The translations under genes and the position numbers were made by a program. The notes beneath the pieces are model-generated. The model searched no databases and had not been told where the DNA came from. It saw only the letters and a list, made by a program, of their open reading frames with translations. From NCBI GenBank assembly GCA_009773515.1, contig WSXX01000005.1, forward strand, positions 1 to 64,000: a stretch of DNA of 64,000 nucleotides. Reading direction: 5' to 3'. Source of the stretch: Bacteroidota bacterium. GTDB lineage: Bacteria > Bacteroidota > Bacteroidia > Bacteroidales > Lentimicrobiaceae. Positions within the stretch are counted from its first letter, which is position 1. The number at the start of each line of letters is the position of its first letter. Shown here one piece after another: positions 23,235 through 35,787 of the stretch.

Positions 23235-24818
23235 ATGAGCAACACCATTTTGACAGCCACCTCTGAAAAAGTACTTTTCAGCCAGACTGATGTAGAAGAA
23301 CTGATGCATCGCTTTCATTATTCCGATGAAACAAAAGCCATTATCCGAGAAGAAGATCTGCTGCCAACCGGCGTATTGAGTCGTTTGCATGCCACATTTC
23401 CACAGCATTCGGGCATGCGTGAAAAGGAAGAGTTTCATTTCAACGACAAAAAACACTACACCGGATTAAACGGCTTCAGAGAAATCAATGCCATTCTTGA
23501 AGAAAACGGCATCCACATCGGACATCTGGAAGAACGCGAACTGTTCATTCATGTTTACCGTTTCATGGCAACAAAACATGTACTGAATACAATTAAATGG
23601 GCAAATTTTGAAAAGGATTCTGTTTTTCAGCTCGTTTTTCCTCAACCGGGTATGATTCGCCCCGATGTTGCAAAAGCCTATCTGAGTGCATCTTCAGAAG
23701 AGGAAAAAATGAAGATTGTGAAAGATTACATGAAGGAAACCAATCCCCATGATGGCAAACAGCAGATCAACAAACCTACTTTCATCAATACCGAAGGCGA
23801 GGCAGTAGTGGTTGAAGGCAGTCAGCATAAATATCCGCAATGCCAGCTGATTTTCGATGTTCAAACCCAGAATTGTTTTGCTTTCTGCAATTATTGTTTC
23901 CGTCATGCACAGGTGCGTGGAGATGAGGATATGTTTGTGCAAAAAGACATCACTCAGATTCATGATTATCTGAAACAGCACAAAGAAGTAAGTGATGTGC
24001 TGATAACCGGTGGAGATGCCGGATACATCAGTGCCGATCGCTTTGAAAGCTACATTACACCTATTATCGAAGATCCTGAACTAGGCCATATCAAGACCAT
24101 CCGACTGGGAACCCGCGTGCTGACTTTCAATCCCGAACTGGTGATTATGCCATCTTACAACAAGATGCTCAGTTTGTTTCAGAAGTTGTACGACAATGGA
24201 ATACAACTTGTTTTCATGTCGCATTTCTCCACCCCGCGCGAATTGATGAATCCCAGCACCGTAGCTGCAATCCGCAGGCTTAAAGCGCATGGAGCAACAG
24301 TAAAAAGTCAGAGCCCCATCATGAACCACATCAGTCTGTTCTCCGATGAAAACGGCGAAGTGGATGTTGACCGCTCAGCACAGAGCTGGATCGACCTCGG
24401 CAACCTACTGGCTATGCTGGGCGTGGGATTCCACTCCATGTACTGCGCCCGACCAACCGGCGAACATCATTACTTCACACAGCCATTGGCCAAAATCAAT
24501 GAAGTGTTCAGTAAAGTTTACAGGTCGCTTTCATCTATCAATCGCCCATCAAGGTATATCACCATGACTTCTTCGGCAGGTAAAATTTCGTTGCTGGGAA
24601 CTGTTGATCTCCACGGTGAAAAACTGTTTGCCCTTAAGTTCAATGAAGCCCGCAATATGGAATGGATGGATAAGGTTTACCTTGCTAAATACGATGACCA
24701 TGAAAATACCATTGCAAATCTGAAGCCTTTTGGAGCTGACCAACACTTTTTTGAGGAAGAATTGCATGCCATTGAGTCACACCTGGAGTCATCCATTGAG
24801 ACTACCCGCAAAAAATAG
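23235..24818 (+). CDS. KamA-like radical SAM/PLP amino acid 2,3-aminomutase
   Basis: 527 residues, about 100 longer than clostridial lysine 2,3-aminomutase, mostly from an N-terminal extension. The radical SAM iron-sulfur motif CxxxCxxC is at Cys214, Cys218 and Cys221 ('NCFAFCNYCFRH'). 'DVLITGGDAGYIS' matches the family 'LLSGGDALL' segment and 'RLGTRVLTFNPE' the 'RIGSRTPVVLPQ' segment. Lys450 in 'SSAGK' aligns with the PLP lysine. The two aspartates that bind the side-chain amine of lysine (Asp293 and Asp330 in the clostridial enzyme) align with Ala405 and Thr443, so lysine is unlikely to be the substrate. The enzyme should move an amino group from C2 to C3. It heads a run with CoA-transferase and aminotransferase genes, 19 bp before the next gene. 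The family is confident; the substrate is open. Confidence 0.85.
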   Translation: MSNTILTATSEKVLFSQTDVEELMHRFHYSDETKAIIREEDLLPTGVLSRLHATFPQHSGMREKEEFHFNDKKHYTGLNGFREINAILEENGIHIGHLEERELFIHVYRFMATKHVLNTIKWANFEKDSVFQLVFPQPGMIRPDVAKAYLSASSEEEKMKIVKDYMKETNPHDGKQQINKPTFINTEGEAVVVEGSQHKYPQCQLIFDVQTQNCFAFCNYCFRHAQVRGDEDMFVQKDITQIHDYLKQHKEVSDVLITGGDAGYISADRFESYITPIIEDPELGHIKTIRLGTRVLTFNPELVIMPSYNKMLSLFQKLYDNGIQLVFMSHFSTPRELMNPSTVAAIRRLKAHGATVKSQSPIMNHISLFSDENGEVDVDRSAQSWIDLGNLLAMLGVGFHSMYCARPTGEHHYFTQPLAKINEVFSKVYRSLSSINRPSRYITMTSSAGKISLLGTVDLHGEKLFALKFNEARNMEWMDKVYLAKYDDHENTIANLKPFGADQHFFEEELHAIESHLESSIETTRKK

Positions 24819-24837
24819 TTGACCTTAAAACTCAGAC

Positions 24838-25551
24838 ATGATCAACAAAGTAGCAAAAACAGCCGCTGAAGCTGTAGCTGACATTTTTGACGGGGCCACA
24901 ATAATGATCAGTGGATTCGGAGAAGCCGGCAGCCCGATTGAACTTATTCATGCCCTTATCGACCACGGCGCTAAAAACCTTACCGTTGTAAGCAACAACA
25001 CCGGCAACGGTCACATTGGTCTGGCAGCGCTTATCGAAAATAAGCAGGTAAAAAAAATGATCTGCTCTTTTCCAAGGACAGCCAATTCAATCGTTTTTCC
25101 TGAACTTTATCGTCAGGGCGAAATTGAACTTGAGCTGGTTCCTCAGGGAACACTTGCTGAGCGCATCAGAGCCGGGGGCGCAGGAGTTCCGGCCTTCTTC
25201 ACCCCTACTTCTGTAAATACACCGTTGGCTGAAGGAAAAGAAACCCGCATTTTTGATGGCAAACCCTATGTGATGGAATTCGGAATTAAAGCCGATTTTG
25301 CTCTGGTAAAATGCAAAACTGCCGACCGCTACGGAAATCTGTTGTTTAATAAAACAGCCCGTAATTTTGGTCCGGTGATGTGTATGGCGGCTAAATCAGC
25401 CATTGTACAGGCTTCGGAAATCGTTGAGATCGGCAGTATTGATCCTGAAATAGTGGTCACACCCGGAATATTCGTAAAAAAAGTAGTTGAAATTACCAAC
25501 CCTGTCAGCGAAAATCAACTGATCAGGGAGAACAGGAGGTACCCATGGTAG
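24838..25551 (+). CDS. pcaI: 3-oxoacid (3-oxoadipate-type) CoA-transferase subunit A
   Basis: 237 residues, the alpha subunit of a family I CoA-transferase. Glycine-rich 'MISGFGEAGSPIELIHALI' and 'VVSNNTGNGHIGLAAL' match the CoA-binding region. 'CSFPRTANSIVFPELYRQGE', 'VPQGTLAERIRAGGAG' and 'DRYGNLLFNKTARNFGP' are close to PcaI of the beta-ketoadipate pathway as I remember it. Related families are ScoA and AtoD. With subunit B it transfers CoA from succinyl-CoA to a beta-keto acid. Its 3' end overlaps subunit B by 7 bases, so the two are translationally coupled. The symbol reflects family resemblance; the true substrate depends on the neighbouring aminomutase. Confidence 0.85.
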   Translation: MINKVAKTAAEAVADIFDGATIMISGFGEAGSPIELIHALIDHGAKNLTVVSNNTGNGHIGLAALIENKQVKKMICSFPRTANSIVFPELYRQGEIELELVPQGTLAERIRAGGAGVPAFFTPTSVNTPLAEGKETRIFDGKPYVMEFGIKADFALVKCKTADRYGNLLFNKTARNFGPVMCMAAKSAIVQASEIVEIGSIDPEIVVTPGIFVKKVVEITNPVSENQLIRENRRYPW

Positions 25552-26195
25552 CAGAAATCAAAGGCTGGAACCGCGAACAAATGGCACAGAAAATTGCCGG
25601 CGATATCCCCGATGGAGCATATGTAAACCTGGGCATCGGTCTTCCGGAGCTGGTTGCCAATTACATTCCCGAAGGCAGAGAAGTAATTTTCCATACCGAA
25701 AACGGATTGCTTGGCGTTGGCCCTTCACCAGCTAAAGAAGATGAAGACGACGAACTGATCAATGCCGGCAAAAAACCGGTTACCGCAATAAAAGGAGCAT
25801 GTTTTTTTCATCATGCCGATAGCTTTGCAATGATTCGCGGCGGACACATCGACATTTGTGTGCTTGGCGCCTTTCAGGTATCAGAAAACGGTGATCTTGC
25901 CAATTGGTCAACCGGTGAGCCGGGTGCAATTCCTGCGGTTGGCGGTGCAATGGATCTGGTGGAAGGTGTAAAAACCATTATCATCTTTACCCAACATACG
26001 ACCAAAAACGGCGAACCTAAAATTGTAAAGGAATGTACCTATCCCCTTACCGGGAAAGGAGTAGTCAGCCATATTTACACCGATTATGCCGTAATTGATG
26101 TCACCGATAACGGAATGTTTGTGCGGGAAATGGCCCCCGGAATTGATTTTGAATTCCTGAAAAGCTGCACAGAAGCAGAACTGAAACAATATTAA
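25545..26195 (+). CDS. pcaJ: 3-oxoacid (3-oxoadipate-type) CoA-transferase subunit B
   Basis: 216 residues, the catalytic beta subunit. The catalytic glutamate lies in 'VIFHTENGLLGVGPSP'. 'AYVNLGIGLPELVANYIPEG', 'CFFHHADSFAMIRGGHIDI', 'LGAFQVSENGDLANW' and 'IPAVGGAMDLVEGVK' are PcaJ/ScoB signatures. It forms the alpha-beta enzyme with the preceding gene, whose end overlaps its start. The aminotransferase follows after 28 bp, so all four genes from the aminomutase on are likely one transcript. A plain acetoacetate role (ScoAB) is the main alternative to a 3-oxoadipate role. Confidence 0.87.
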   Translation: MVAEIKGWNREQMAQKIAGDIPDGAYVNLGIGLPELVANYIPEGREVIFHTENGLLGVGPSPAKEDEDDELINAGKKPVTAIKGACFFHHADSFAMIRGGHIDICVLGAFQVSENGDLANWSTGEPGAIPAVGGAMDLVEGVKTIIIFTQHTTKNGEPKIVKECTYPLTGKGVVSHIYTDYAVIDVTDNGMFVREMAPGIDFEFLKSCTEAELKQY

Positions 26196-26223
26196 ACCAA
26201 CCAATCAAAAATATCTACAAGCC

Positions 26224-27567
26224 ATGTCAATACAGCATAATGAATTGATAAAAGCCAAAGAAACCGAGGAAGAACTTTATAAAAAAGCCTGCGAAGTTAT
26301 GCCGGGCGGCATCAGCCGAAATGTGGTGTTTCGCAAGCCTCACCCTTTTTATGTTTCTGAAGCAGCCGGCTGCTATGTAACCGACATTAACGGAGTAAAA
26401 AAGGTTGACTTTGCCAACAATATCGCTTCACTTATTCATGGTCACGCTCATCCGGCCATTGTGGAGGCTGTCTGCAACCAGATAAAAAAAGGTACCGCTT
26501 ATACCATAGGCACCGAAATTGAAATTGAGCATGCTAAATTACTGTGCGACAGGGTTCCCGGATTCGACAAAATCCGTTTCATGAACTCAGGAACAGAAGC
26601 GGTAATGGCAATGATCAAAGCAGCCCGCGCCTTTACCGGCAAACCTAAAATTGCAAAAGCCGAAGGCGGTTACCACGGAAGTTTCGATACCGCTGAAGTA
26701 AGCCAGAGTGCATCACCAGCAACCTGGGGCGACATCAACAGCCCGAACAGCGTGCCGCATGTACCCGGAACCCCGCAAGGCGTTCTCGACAATGTTGTGA
26801 TTTATCCTTACAATGACATTGAGCGTACAATCAGCATACTGAACCGCAACGCTGCTGATATTGCCTGTGTTATCATTGATCCCGTTCCGCATCGCATCGG
26901 CATGGTTCAGGCTACCCCTGAATTTGTGGAAGCAATTTACAACTGGACACGACAAAACAATGCATTGCTTTGCTTTGATGAGGTAATCTGTTTCAGGGTA
27001 GCCTATGAAGGTGCTCAATCCAATTACAAGGTGAAACCCGATCTTACATCGCTCGGAAAAATTATTGGCGGTGGATTCCCCATCGGCGCATTTGCCGGAA
27101 GAAAAGACATCATGGACATACTTGATCCGGGTGGAAGTGACTACAGATTCCCGCTTTCAGGAACATTCTCGGCCAATCCGGTTTCTATGACTGCAGGAAA
27201 AGTTGCTATGGAAATGCTCAACCGCGAAGCCATGGACAAACTGAACAGCAATTCTCAGATCGCCATCAACCAGATTTACGAAGCAGGTAGGCTTGCAGGA
27301 ATTCCACTAAGCATCACCGGAAAAGGATCAATGTTTAAAGTCCATTTCAGGGAAACTGCACCCACAACCTACCGCGATTGTTATGAAGATGCACACACAA
27401 AAAAGATCATGAACCTTTTCCTCGAGAAAATGTACGAAGAGAATGTAATTATGATCAACTCATGTTCTTGTGTACTCTCTACAGTAGTTACCCAGACAGA
27501 AATTGATATGCTGAGTGAGGCTATGCTGAAGAGTTTCAAACATATTAAACCTCATCTGGAAGTTTAA
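26224..27567 (+). CDS. Class III PLP aminotransferase (glutamate-1-semialdehyde-like), putative beta-amino acid transaminase
   Basis: 447 residues. 'EVMPGGISRNVVFRKPHPFY' and 'VDFANNIASLIHGHAHPAIV' place it in the glutamate-1-semialdehyde aminomutase-like branch of class III. The PLP lysine is in 'TSLGKIIGGGFPIGAFAGR', the cofactor Asp region in 'LLCFDEVICFRV', and the substrate-entry 'MNSGTEAVMAMIKAARA' is intact. It is not a haem-pathway hemL on context. Characterised beta-amino acid transaminases belong to the same branch. Its position after an aminomutase and a CoA-transferase suggests that it converts the beta-amino acid to a beta-keto acid, comparable to yodT in the Bacillus subtilis kamA-yod cluster. 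The family is confident; the substrate is inferred. Confidence 0.83.
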   Translation: MSIQHNELIKAKETEEELYKKACEVMPGGISRNVVFRKPHPFYVSEAAGCYVTDINGVKKVDFANNIASLIHGHAHPAIVEAVCNQIKKGTAYTIGTEIEIEHAKLLCDRVPGFDKIRFMNSGTEAVMAMIKAARAFTGKPKIAKAEGGYHGSFDTAEVSQSASPATWGDINSPNSVPHVPGTPQGVLDNVVIYPYNDIERTISILNRNAADIACVIIDPVPHRIGMVQATPEFVEAIYNWTRQNNALLCFDEVICFRVAYEGAQSNYKVKPDLTSLGKIIGGGFPIGAFAGRKDIMDILDPGGSDYRFPLSGTFSANPVSMTAGKVAMEMLNREAMDKLNSNSQIAINQIYEAGRLAGIPLSITGKGSMFKVHFRETAPTTYRDCYEDAHTKKIMNLFLEKMYEENVIMINSCSCVLSTVVTQTEIDMLSEAMLKSFKHIKPHLEV

Positions 27568-28051
27568 TCAGGGTCTGCTTAAAAATATTAAGAGCCATAT
27601 TTTCAGCGACTTACAGAGTTAATTAAGAACAAAAGTGCATAGTATTAATGAGGTTGTCACATTTTTCCATGCACTATATAATGAACTGAAGATGCAAAAT
27701 CCCGCAGGGATTGCCCATCAATAACCCCCAATGCAATTGGGGGTCGTGCAATACGAACTGAAAAACAGAACCCTGTAAGGGTTCCCCCATGATAAAGGGC
27801 AACCCTTACAGGGTTGTTTTGTTTGATGATCCATTAACCCCCGGTTGGGCAAGCCGCACCGGGGGTTATTAAAGGGAAACTCCTAACGGAGTTTTTTAGC
27901 ATATCTTAATTAGTTGACCAATAGTAAAAAATGTTTGTCACACTGAGCGGAGATGAAACAGTGTACACTCTAAGCGAATGTCACACTGAGCGGTTCCGAT
28001 AGCTATTGGAACGAAGTAATTTAACACCTTTTTTTAAAGTTATATCCCACT
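27568..28051. repeat. Stack of palindromes between the aminotransferase and thiolase genes
   Basis: No gene here. Four hairpins stand in a row. ACCCCCAAT-GCA-ATTGGGGGT lies at 27724-27744. AACCCTGTAAGGGTT lies at 27769-27783 with its inverted copy at 27801-27815. TAACCCCCGG/CCGGGGGTTA lies at 27835-27844 and 27859-27868. AAACTCC-TAAC-GGAGTTT with a T-run lies at 27877-27897. A dispersed TGTCACACTGAGCGG element follows at 27979-28025, with an inner palindrome around TCCGATAGC. Confidence 0.8.
27877..27897 (+). terminator. Rho-independent terminator-like hairpin
   Basis: AAACTCC (27877-27883) and GGAGTTT (27888-27894) pair perfectly around TAAC and run into TTTTTT. It could end the aminomutase operon, leaving the thiolase on its own transcript. 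Confidence 0.6.
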
Positions 28052-29254
28052 ATGAAAGAAGTATTTATCTGCGATGCAATACGCACACCAGTTGGCCGCT
28101 ACGGCGGATCGCTGGCCTCTGTCAGAACTGACGATCTGGCTGCCCTGCCCATCAAAGCCATTCTGGAGCGTAATCCCGGCATCGACCCTGCATTGATCGA
28201 CGATGTGATTTTTGGTTGTGCCAATCAGGCTGGCGAAGACAACCGCAACGTGGCGCGTATGGCTGTGCTTCTTGCAGGTCTGCCTTACGAAGTTCCGGGG
28301 GTAACCGTAAATCGCCTTTGCGGATCAGGAATGGAAGCCATTGGTGCTGCAGCCCGCGCCATCAAAGCAGGCGAAGCAGAACTGATTATTGCCGGAGGTG
28401 TTGAGAGCATGACCCGCGCTCCTTTTGTCATGGGAAAAGCTACCGAAGCCTTTGCCCGGCAGAATGAAATTTATGACACCACCATCGGATGGCGTTTTGT
28501 GAATAAAAAACTTGCACAGCTCTATGGCGTGGATTCTATGATAGAAACTGCCGAAAATCTGGCTCAGGAGATGAACATCAGCCGCGAAGATCAGGATCTT
28601 TTTGCGTATCGCAGTCAGATGAAAACGAAGGAAGCAAAAGAGAAAGGTCTCTTCAACAGTGAAATCATTCCTGTCGCAATTCCTGTGGCAAAATCAGAAC
28701 CTGTTATTTTCAGTGAAGACGAATATCCAAGACTTACTCCGCTTGATAAACTGGCTGCATTGAAAGTAATCACCCGCCCCGGAGGAACCATTACTGCCGC
28801 AAATGCTTCAGGTGTGAATGATGGTGCTGCTGCATTGATTATTGCTTCTGCTGAAGCTGTTAAAAAATACAACCTCAAACCACTTGCCCGCGTTATTGCC
28901 ATGCAGAGTGCGGGTGTTCCTCCCCGAATTATGGGAATCGGGCCGGTGCCGGCTACTCAAAAATTACTGAAACTTACCGGACTTTCTCTTGGCGATTTTG
29001 ATGTGATTGAACTGAACGAAGCCTTTGCTGCGCAATCTCTTGCCTGCACCCGCCAACTGGGACTTGCCGATGATGATCCGCGCATAAATCCGATGGGTGG
29101 AGCCATTGCCATTGGTCATCCGCTGGGAATGAGCGGTGCGCGTATTGTAACTACAGCAGTTCACCAGCTTCAGCAAAATAAGTCTGGCAAAGCACTGTGC
29201 ACAATGTGTATTGGTGTTGGACAAGGGATTGCTATAGCTATTGAAAGGGTTTAG
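28052..29254 (+). CDS. pcaF: Thiolase, PcaF/PaaJ (3-oxoadipyl-CoA thiolase) type
   Basis: 400 residues. The nucleophilic Cys is in 'VNRLCGSGMEAIGAA', and the catalytic His and Cys lie in 'AIGHPLGMSGAR' and 'CTMCIGVGQG'. The stretch 'GCANQAGEDNRNVARMA' and 'VESMTRAPFVMGKA...TTIGWRF' are diagnostic of 3-oxoadipyl-CoA thiolases rather than generic acetoacetyl-CoA thiolases, as far as I recall the family. The reaction is 3-oxoacyl-CoA plus CoA giving acetyl-CoA and a shortened acyl-CoA (succinyl-CoA if the substrate is 3-oxoadipyl-CoA). It lies 484 bp after the aminotransferase on the same strand. It probably completes that pathway, although a terminator-like hairpin lies between. Confidence 0.88.
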   Translation: MKEVFICDAIRTPVGRYGGSLASVRTDDLAALPIKAILERNPGIDPALIDDVIFGCANQAGEDNRNVARMAVLLAGLPYEVPGVTVNRLCGSGMEAIGAAARAIKAGEAELIIAGGVESMTRAPFVMGKATEAFARQNEIYDTTIGWRFVNKKLAQLYGVDSMIETAENLAQEMNISREDQDLFAYRSQMKTKEAKEKGLFNSEIIPVAIPVAKSEPVIFSEDEYPRLTPLDKLAALKVITRPGGTITAANASGVNDGAAALIIASAEAVKKYNLKPLARVIAMQSAGVPPRIMGIGPVPATQKLLKLTGLSLGDFDVIELNEAFAAQSLACTRQLGLADDDPRINPMGGAIAIGHPLGMSGARIVTTAVHQLQQNKSGKALCTMCIGVGQGIAIAIERV

Positions 29255-29643
29255 GTTAGTAGAGTACAATTTCACCCATTGTTAATGTATTTCGCCCTTT
29301 CAGAGCTTAATTTTATGTTCAGCCCTGAAAGGGCGAAATATGTTAACACAGTGGCGAAGCCCTGTGATATCAAAGTGTCATAACGAAAAAAAGCCCTGAA
29401 AGGGCGCAATAACTTCTCACGATGAGCCTGCCTGTGTGCCATGGCAAACAGGGTTGATCCTGCTCAGTAGAATGACACACTTAGCATTCCGATGGCTGAG
29501 GGAACAAAGTGTTTTAAACATTTAAACTCCTGATGTAATCTTTTTCCTTTTTCTTCGTCTAAAAATTTACACATCCCCGAATCCTTCCGGGGATTTGTTT
29601 GTTTTAATTAGTTAACCACATTTCCTAACCAATTCCAACACAT
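29255..29643. repeat. Non-coding gap with dispersed palindromes
   Basis: TATTTCGCCCTTTCAG at 29288-29303 has a perfect 16-bp inverted partner at 29325-29340. A further GCCCTGAAAGGGC palindrome lies at about 29393-29405, and CACAG...CTGTG pairs around 29347-29366. At 29470-29517 there is another copy of the GACACACTTAGC...GAACAAAGTGTTTTAAAC element. No gene is supported. Confidence 0.75.
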
Positions 29644-34041: not shown

Positions 34042-34857
34042 ATGGCACATCCTGTTTTTGCAAACAACTCCAGGTTCGTCAAACTATCTTTCGACAGAAA
34101 ACTTCTGTGTAATTGGGCAGATGAATTGTTTGAATGGCTTTTTTGCATTCATCCGGCTTACACCGATGAAAATACCTTTATCTACAAGGAAATTGAATTG
34201 AAACAAAAGCTCACTGAGTTTATTGATCAGACAAATCAATGCAATGTCAGCCCCGAGGTATTTATTGAACCGTTTTTCAATCAGTTGCCCCGGATTCATG
34301 CCATGTTAAGGGATGATCTGGAAGCTTTTTTCAGATTTGATCCTGCGGCAGCTTCAATTGATGAGGTTTTATATGCCTATCCCGGGTTTTACGCAATTTC
34401 CATTCATCGGCTGGCCCATGAACTGAACCGCCTGAATGTGCCGCTTATTCCCCGGCTTTTGTCGGAATATTCTCACTATAAAACCGGAATTGATATCCAT
34501 CCTGCTGCATCCATCGGTGAGCGTTTTCTTATTGATCATGGAACCGGTGTGGTCATCGGCGAAACCTGTGTTATTGGAAACGATGTAAAAATTTATCAGG
34601 GAGTTACCCTTGGAGCCTTAAGTGTGACAAGGGAAAGTGCAGATACCAAAAGGCATCCGGCCATCGGAAACAGGGTGGTCATTTATGCCAATGCAACCAT
34701 TCTTGGCGGAAATACAGTAATCGGAGATGATTCAATTATCGGTGGAAATGTCTGGATCACACATTCAATTCCACCTCAATCGCTGGTGTTTCACAAAAGT
34801 GAAATCGTCATCAAAAACAACTCCGTTTTTCCGGAACCGCTGAACTTTGTCATTTAA
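34042..34857 (+). CDS. cysE: Serine O-acetyltransferase
   Basis: 271 residues. An N-terminal helical domain (about 1-150) with '[16 protein letters not shown]' precedes a left-handed beta-helix of hexapeptide repeats: '[19 protein letters not shown]', '[20 protein letters not shown]', 'VTLGALSV'. The catalytic His is in 'IDHGTG' and the '[20 protein letters not shown]' segment is typical. It makes O-acetylserine from serine and acetyl-CoA, the first step of cysteine synthesis. cysK follows after 15 bp, so they form an operon. This longer type with the extended helical N terminus is common in Bacteroidota. Confidence 0.93.
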
Positions 34858-34872
34858 CAAAAACTCAAAATC

Positions 34873-35787
34873 ATGAAAGCAAACAACATTCTTGAAACCA
34901 TAGGAAATACGCCACACGTCAGAATCAATAAGCTGTTTGGCACTTCGCATAACGTCTGGATCAAACTTGAACGCAACAATCCCGGCAACAGCATCAAAGA
35001 TCGTATTGCGTTTGCAATGGTTGAGGATGCCGAAAAAAGAGGCATTCTGACCAAAGACAGCACCATCATTGAACCTACTTCCGGCAATACCGGAATTGGT
35101 CTTGCCCTGGTTGCTGCAGTTAAAGGTTATAAACTGCTTCTTGTTATGCCGGAATCGATGAGCATTGAACGCCGCAAGTTAATGGCGGTTTATGGTGCTC
35201 AGCTTGAACTGACGCCCCGCGAAAAAGGCATGAAAGGTGCCATCGAAAGAGCAACCGAGCTGGTGCAAACCACCCCCAATGCCTGGATGCCGCAGCAATT
35301 CAACAATCAGGCAAACGCTGAAATTCACCGGAAAACAACCGCGCTGGAGATATTATCTGATTTTCCGGATGGACTTGATTACATCATTACCGGCGTTGGA
35401 ACCGGAGGACACATTTCAGGCGTTGCTGAAGTGCTGAAACCAAAATTTCCCCGATTAAAAGTTTTTGCTGTTGAGCCGGAACTTTCGCCTGTGTTGAGTG
35501 GCGGTGCTCCCGGGCCTCATCCCATTCAGGGTATCGGCGCCGGATTTGTGCCTCAGATTTACAGAAACGATCTGATAGATGGTGTTATTCAGGTTGGAAA
35601 AGAGGAAGCATTTGAATACGCCCGAAAAATCGCTTCGCAGGAAGGAATTTTTGTTGGAATTTCAACCGGTGCTTCTCTGGCTGCTGTCGCGAAAAAATTA
35701 CCGGAAATTCCTGATGGCGCTAATATTCTGACATTTAACTACGATACCGGAGAAAGGTATCTTTCGGTGGAAGGCCTTTTTATCTGA
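34873..35787 (+). CDS. cysK: Cysteine synthase A (O-acetylserine sulfhydrylase)
   Basis: 304 residues. The PLP lysine is in '[17 protein letters not shown]', the phosphate- and substrate-binding loops in '[12 protein letters not shown]' and '[16 protein letters not shown]', and '[11 protein letters not shown]' matches the CysE tail-binding region. It converts O-acetylserine and sulfide to cysteine and may form the cysteine synthase complex with the adjacent CysE. Length and motifs are complete. Confidence 0.95.

Follow-up and report, generated by a model that had tools for sequence, protein, structure and literature searches.

A conserved five-gene operon predicted to take lysine through 3-aminoadipate into the beta-ketoadipate pathway

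We analysed a stretch of 64,000 nucleotides from a Bacteroidota bacterium of the Lentimicrobiaceae (assembly GCA_009773515.1, contig WSXX01000005.1, positions 1 to 64,000; hereafter the window), in which five genes in a row on the + strand encode a KamA-like aminomutase (AM), the two subunits of a 3-oxoacid CoA-transferase (CtA and CtB), an aminotransferase (AT) and a thiolase (Thl). These genes very probably make up the lower half of a pathway that degrades lysine through 2-aminoadipate, 3-aminoadipate and 3-oxoadipate, a reading built on sequence comparison. An earlier note on this DNA had named the five genes in this order, and had suggested that 2-aminoadipate might be their substrate. The listing of open reading frames (ORFs) bears out the order and the common strand, and the suggested route now draws support from the placement of the CoA-transferase and thiolase outside the acetoacetate-type clades, from conserved clustering of the five genes, and from aminoadipate-forming genes in the same genome and in the clusters of Prolixibacteraceae.

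In the proposed route, L-lysine would be converted through saccharopine to L-2-aminoadipate by lysine-ketoglutarate reductase (LKR), saccharopine dehydrogenase and piperideine-6-carboxylate dehydrogenase (P6CDH). AM would then turn L-2-aminoadipate into 3-aminoadipate by moving its amino group from C2 to C3, and AT would convert this product to 3-oxoadipate. The PcaIJ-like CoA-transferase would move CoA from succinyl-CoA onto 3-oxoadipate, and Thl would cleave the resulting 3-oxoadipyl-CoA to succinyl-CoA and acetyl-CoA. The substrates and products given here for AM and AT, and flux through the whole route, are predictions. The route would be assembled from known enzyme families, two of them with new specificities. 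It is probable that these genes complete a lysine degradation pathway that depends on an AM and an AT of new specificity and links lysine catabolism to the beta-ketoadipate pathway, in Bacteroidota and in scattered other phyla.

Within the open-licence literature of PubMed Central (PMC), a scope outside which most subscription papers and bioRxiv fall, we found no description of this route, no mention of 3-aminoadipate, and nothing that joins 2-aminoadipate to an aminomutase and 3-oxoadipate or radical SAM enzymes to aminoadipate and lysine degradation. The sole reference to beta-aminoadipic acid met there, in PMC9854754, is a cited title on lysine 6-aminotransferase, in which the alpha compound seems to be meant.

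Conservation of the operon and its links to aminoadipate formation

The evidence observed directly in sequence comprises the gene identities, the conservation of the operon, residue changes in AM, the clade of the CoA-transferase and thiolase, and the physical proximity of P6CDH and saccharopine dehydrogenase genes to the operon. We scanned one genome per species for 84,980 species, a search that reaches only close relatives, and recovered 45 loci with an AM relative at 54-87% identity. AM, CtA and CtB occurred together in all 45, AT was present in 43 of them and Thl in 36, usually in the order AM-CtA-CtB-AT-Thl, so the arrangement is not a product of chance, and the clustering and co-occurrence that the earlier note had looked to in relatives are conserved. 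AT is missing from L026, which stops at a contig end, and from L036; in L037 a GSA-like AT, 29% identical, is placed after Thl. Nine loci are without Thl, and six of these end at contig ends (L003, L004, L017, L026, L033 and L045), while L035 has no Thl within the ~0.9 kb that remains. Median gaps across 70 loci, counted from longest-ORF starts, were 11, -10, 18 and 15.5 bp for AM-CtA, CtA-CtB, CtB-AT and AT-Thl, respectively.

The titles of operon-bearing records point to Bacteroidota, Pseudomonadota (including an isolate, Shewanella corallii), Sumerlaeota, Krumholzibacteriia, Desulfuromonadales and Verrucomicrobiia; most of these records are metagenome-assembled genomes (MAGs), whose taxon labels may err. 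AM is rare across its phylum, being present in 3 of 395 sampled Bacteroidota genomes, in 8 of 19 genomes of the window's genus (at least 61% identity) and in 26 of 140 genomes of the family of G043, titled Prolixibacteraceae. Some genomes recur across these samples, and the counts are not additive.

Aminoadipate-forming genes adjoin the operon in Prolixibacteraceae. At L043, from a MAG of that title, Thl is followed by a gene for P6CDH (804.1 bits on NF050084, L-piperidine-6-carboxylate dehydrogenase; cut-off 730) and then by one for saccharopine dehydrogenase (PF16653, 264.4 bits). P6CDH is the enzyme that yields L-2-aminoadipate, as its family name says and as PMC9854754 describes. It follows Thl in all 24 loci of the family that extend far enough downstream (L135-L157 and L043); in G528 it spans two ORFs. 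After it comes a gene for saccharopine dehydrogenase in 23 of the 24 and one for a PF05222 LKR-type protein in the remaining locus. These 23 saccharopine dehydrogenases are 63-70% identical to that of L043, with Pfam identity checked for L144, L135 and L043, and 21 of the 24 loci from L134 to L157 have a second saccharopine dehydrogenase gene, divergently placed, directly upstream. Two MAGs, one of Ramlibacter (L033) and one of Desulfuromonadales (L042), independently have P6CDH adjoining the operon. Outside Prolixibacteraceae aminoadipate seems to be formed in various ways: G024 has P6CDH together with both LKR and saccharopine dehydrogenase, G015 has it with LKR, and in G036 it lies beside an FAD oxidoreductase.

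The window's own genome also encodes these functions, which the earlier note had proposed to look for there. P6CDH is encoded on contig C2 (50919-52343; 788.7 bits, cut-off 730), and on contig C4 a saccharopine dehydrogenase gene (PF16653, 252.6 bits) adjoins an LKR-type gene (PF05222). The genome thus holds a candidate gene for each step from lysine to acetyl-CoA and succinyl-CoA, though the genes are scattered. It has no TIGR03820 lysine 2,3-aminomutase at 1e-100 and no lysine 6-aminotransferase (LAT) at 1e-90. In the stretch L056:4679-9356 its P6CDH gene is preceded by genes for a glutamate-semialdehyde dehydrogenase (its neighbour; TIGR01236, 773.8 bits), for a solute-binding protein of the SBP_bac_11 type and for an HTH_1 protein of 124 aa.

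Among 46 genomes that carry AM, a long saccharopine dehydrogenase (>220 bits) was found in 30. We rejected LAT (TIGR03251) as a general source of aminoadipate, given that it exceeds its cut-off in only three of the 46 (G030, G039 and G045; control, 0 of 14). None of these three has P6CDH over its cut-off, the G045 protein reaching 726.6 bits and being cut at a contig end.

The aminomutase and its partner enzymes

AM (23235..24818, + strand, 527 aa) is a divergent KamA-like radical SAM enzyme dependent on pyridoxal phosphate (PLP). The kinship with KamA asserted in the earlier note stands at the level of the family but is only distant: AM scores 76.5 bits on the KamA subfamily model TIGR00238 (cut-off 199.2), 68.8 on TIGR03820, the KamA lysine 2,3-aminomutase (LAM) model (cut-off 525.4), and 64.4 on TIGR04368, the glutamate 2,3-aminomutase model (cut-off 650). 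Six KamA-type models match within residues 186-454, every score far under cut-off; Pfam gave no match at E<=0.001, and the sole sequence relative of an AM profile in the PDB was LAM 2a5h (48.6 bits). Judged by sequence, AM is not a lysine 2,3-aminomutase.

Alignment of 33 AM proteins (from the window and 32 of the 45 loci) with six true LAM, in 2a5h numbering, revealed retained catalytic residues and an altered side-chain site. The radical SAM cysteines are C214, C218 and C221, of which the first and last are invariant and C218 is kept in at least 90%. The PLP lysine (K450, LAM K337) is present in all 33 proteins and the equivalent of LAM Arg134 (R223) in 32, the remaining one being unread. 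At the position of Asp293, which is Asp in all six true LAM, every one of the 33 AM has Arg (R406 in the window); at that of Asp330, likewise Asp in all six, AM has Thr in 21 (T443 in the window) and Ser in 12. In LAM these two aspartates presumably bind the ammonium group of the lysine substrate. Glutamate 2,3-aminomutase carries Lys and Asn at the two places, and the Lys at the Asp293 place was reportedly described by Ruzicka and Frey in 2007. The charge at the Asp293 site is thus reversed in AM, which suits a substrate with a distal carboxylate, and its replacement by Arg in all 33 proteins disfavours lysine as a direct substrate. We propose that AM acts as an L-2-aminoadipate 2,3-aminomutase.

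In a tree that included 15 AM rows, AM, a KamA-like paralogue family and LAM formed three groups, subject to a long-branch warning. This second family, of ~450 aa and 32-36% identical to AM, is present in 12 of 19 genomes of the window's genus. The copy in the window's genome lies on contig C57 (123786-125018; locus L087), with a NUDIX-like ORF, named by eye, upstream. Plasmid relatives of AM at 27-33% identity also exist, many of them named 'lysine 2,3-aminomutase'.

The CoA-transferase and thiolase belong to families that fit the proposed 3-oxoadipate chemistry, as the earlier note had noticed. CtA (24838..25551, + strand, 237 aa) is a PcaI-like subunit A, and CtB (25545..26195, + strand, 216 aa), which overlaps CtA by 7 bp, is a subunit B that is PcaJ-like by its partner. 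They score 355.9 bits on TIGR02429 (cut-off 128.5) and 308.1 bits on TIGR02428 (cut-off 243.55), respectively, both being subfamily models that span acetoacetate and oxoadipate enzymes. Thl (28052..29254, + strand, 400 aa) is a 3-oxoadipyl-CoA thiolase of the PcaF family (675.8 bits on TIGR02430, pcaF; cut-off 597), and its best PDB relatives are 8gqh ('Thiolase', 554.8 bits) and 6pca ('Beta-ketoadipyl-CoA thiolase', 552.5 bits).

A subunit A tree of the window, 21 of the 45 loci and 13 references (L113 disregarded as a wrong ORF, L112 unlabelled) separated AtoD/ScoA-type proteins, at 99/99, from CtA and the PcaI of known ring-cleavage clusters, including pcaIJF of Rhizobium etli pA, Sphingobium pPBA and Chimaeribacter p353; resolution within the PcaI side was poor. 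The thiolase tree, of the window, 20 loci and seven references, set AtoB-type enzymes apart from Thl, PcaF and PaaJ at 100/100.

AT (26224..27567, + strand, 447 aa), the proposed 3-aminoadipate aminotransferase, is the class III, GSA-like enzyme that the earlier note had recognised, yet it falls below the hemL cut-off (367.3 bits against 527.3). Arg32 of its PGGxxR motif is conserved in 65 of 65 proteins, the diverged L037 copy included, a count that covers the window and 64 of 67 AT-bearing loci (short ORFs in L003, L004 and L017 were left out). A similar Arg presumably binds the carboxylate in beta-phenylalanine aminotransferases.

CoA-transferase pairs also occur on plasmids. The top-listed pair, on Tistrella mobilis pTM2 (L102, 1-6391; CtA 65.5%), has genes for a 2-oxoadipate dioxygenase/decarboxylase (PF07063) and for an aldehyde dehydrogenase in its vicinity, which is another aminoadipate context. 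A pair on Rhizobium phaseoli pRetR611d (L110, 1552-5334) neighbours a gene resembling saccharopine dehydrogenase and one for a 3-keto-5-aminohexanoate cleavage protein.

Other substrates and other pathways

Several observations weigh against a lysine pathway through 3-aminoadipate. The lysine-oxidation genes of the window's genome are on contigs other than that of the operon. Loci L010 and L034 have no Thl nearby although there is room for one, and L036 is without an aminotransferase and is not at a contig end. P6CDH is over cut-off in only 28 of the 46 genomes with AM (control, 1 of 14), and eight of the 46 have neither P6CDH nor LAT over cut-off and no saccharopine dehydrogenase above 220 bits. 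Three of these eight are small MAGs (G003, G004 and G010, the last matching saccharopine dehydrogenase only in part, at 165.5 bits), and five are Pseudomonadota (G028, G034, G035, G038 and G040), the S. corallii isolate among them, which may form aminoadipate with other enzymes or have an AM with a different substrate.

Co-occurrence of AM and P6CDH in a genome likewise says little for Bacteroidota at large. In Prolixibacteraceae, P6CDH was found in 25 of 26 genomes with AM and in 26 of 114 without it (25 over cut-off), and the 26th genome with AM has P6CDH in the cluster as two ORFs; the Fisher test gives p = 1.7e-12, a value uncorrected for kinship that, for a single lineage, overstates independence. 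P6CDH is over cut-off in 196 of the 395 sampled Bacteroidota genomes, 3 of 3 with AM and 193 of 392 without (p = 0.12), and in the window's genus it occurs in 8 of 8 with AM and 7 of 11 without (p = 0.10). We therefore dropped co-occurrence as evidence across the phylum, regard it as weak in the genus and keep it only for Prolixibacteraceae. Finally, the side-chain-site residues of AM, as aligned, do not separate aminoadipate from glutamate. In the second KamA-like family the Asp293 place is likewise occupied by Arg (9 of 9), so that this Arg alone does not define aminoadipate, and a ScoA-like CoA-transferase sits within a catechol cluster (L101), so that clade does not fix the substrate of the CoA-transferase.

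These points bear first on glutamate, the other substrate raised in the earlier note. AM could be a glutamate 2,3-aminomutase whose beta-glutamate serves as an osmolyte, or passes through 3-oxoglutarate and 3-oxoglutaryl-CoA to malonyl-CoA and acetyl-CoA. The Arg would suit glutamate too, and the five Pseudomonadota genomes with none of the aminoadipate-forming genes searched for would be accommodated. We nevertheless consider glutamate unlikely: AM scores far below the cut-off of the glutamate 2,3-aminomutase model, Thl is an over-cut-off PcaF, a thiolase of C6 substrates, and the P6CDH in 24 of 24 and saccharopine dehydrogenase in 23 of 24 Prolixibacteraceae clusters would be left unexplained.

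It is very unlikely that AM acts on some other amino acid, such as saccharopine or aspartate, and that the cluster serves a different beta-amino acid. The specificity of AM is a prediction and the paralogue family shares its Arg, which leaves space for such a substrate, but the PcaF family suits a C6 beta-keto acid and the product of P6CDH is 2-aminoadipate.

A variant of the Bacillus yod route, in which AM would yield beta-lysine, to be deaminated at C3 and then cleaved with no N6-acetylation, has gene types in common with the operon (kamA, CoA-transferase and class III aminotransferase) but strikes us as highly improbable. Both aspartates that contact the lysine side chain in LAM are replaced in 33 of 33 AM, the LAM model is missed by a wide margin, and beta-lysine has no need of P6CDH. 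The earlier note had remarked that acetylation and deacetylation genes are absent. Beyond the five core genes the most widespread family, an HTH-cupin regulator, reaches only 10 of the 45 loci, and thus no conserved acetyltransferase/deacetylase pair accompanies the operon; this holds for the operon's surroundings, the rest of the genome not having been searched for yodP/yodQ.

Lastly, the PcaIJ, PcaF and PaaJ families usually act in the breakdown of aromatics (beta-ketoadipate) or phenylacetate. That the CoA-transferase and thiolase do so here, with AM and AT as unrelated neighbours, is scarcely credible, because the five-gene order is conserved across phyla and an intradiol ring-cleavage dioxygenase occurs in only 3 of 71 genomes with AM (control, 2 of 14), too few for such aromatic breakdown to explain the pair. 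The absence of ring-cleavage genes reported in the earlier note extends to the whole genome that the window comes from for intradiol dioxygenases (none at 1e-15), the search not having covered extradiol, phenylacetate or other kinds.

Surroundings of the operon and comparison with known systems

Within the window, the junctions of the operon overlap or are short except that between AT and Thl, which is 484 bp (27568-28051) and contains imperfect inverted repeats, for example at 27761-27823; the median gap there in relatives is 15.5 bp. Directly 3' of Thl lies an inverted repeat (29280..29348) with 31-nt arms, 87% complementary, and a 7-nt loop, possibly marking the end of the transcript. A GNAT acetyltransferase ORF (PF00583; 33166-33699), 3.9 kb downstream of Thl, looks unrelated and is not among the recurrent families. 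Farther on (34042-35787), tandem ORFs resembling serine acetyltransferase and cysteine synthase, named by eye, suggest ordinary cysteine biosynthesis.

Across the 45 loci the commonest accompanying family is an HTH-cupin (PuuR-like) regulator, found in 10 and mostly directly upstream of AM (for example L020:9416-9964); LysR regulators lie near AM in some other loci. Neighbours that recur in seven of the 45 were considered as pathway members and rejected, since they encode tRNA isopentenyl- and CCA-transferases. Also scanned and set aside were carbonic anhydrase, an RRM protein, a PfkB kinase, MORN, LpxR and PGA_cap proteins and a short-chain dehydrogenase, and three of ten recurrent neighbours in one scan matched no family. 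The neighbours at the S. corallii locus (TonB receptor, PhoD-like phosphatase and glycine cleavage) gave no lead on the substrate.

If the proposed route is real, it would need neither 2-oxoadipate dehydrogenase nor oxygen, would lead straight to acetyl-CoA and succinyl-CoA, and would account for possible growth on lysine. Radical aminomutases, a small set, would gain a further substrate, with R406 as a candidate single-residue determinant. The route would also caution against reading distant relatives of KamA as 'lysine 2,3-aminomutase'.

AM has in common with the LAM of Clostridium subterminale (2a5h) and Bacillus subtilis KamA the radical SAM and PLP chemistry, the cysteine motif, the PLP lysine and the Arg134 place, and differs in the exchange of Asp293 for Arg and of Asp330 for Thr or Ser and in its score on TIGR03820. 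With glutamate 2,3-aminomutase it shares a basic residue in the site, from which an acidic substrate side chain is expected, but it scores low on that enzyme's model and is linked to lysine oxidation genes. The Bacillus cluster, with the order kamA-yodP-yodQ-yodR-yodS-yodT, likewise groups an aminomutase, a class III aminotransferase and a CoA-transferase, whereas the AM operon keeps no acetylation or deacetylation genes, has its own PcaF thiolase and differs in the side-chain site. B. subtilis KamA forms beta-lysine in vitro, its cellular role being undetermined according to PMC6522883.

The operon shares with pcaIJF of the beta-ketoadipate pathway its CoA-transferase and thiolase families and probably the same reactions, with an aminomutase and an aminotransferase here taking the place of ring cleavage upstream. 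Known fates of 2-aminoadipate lead through 2-oxoadipate to glutaryl-CoA or 2-hydroxyglutarate. The saccharopine route with P6CDH/PCD, as set out in PMC9854754, would be the upper half of the proposed pathway, the difference being that 2-aminoadipate here would be isomerised and not transaminated to 2-oxoadipate.

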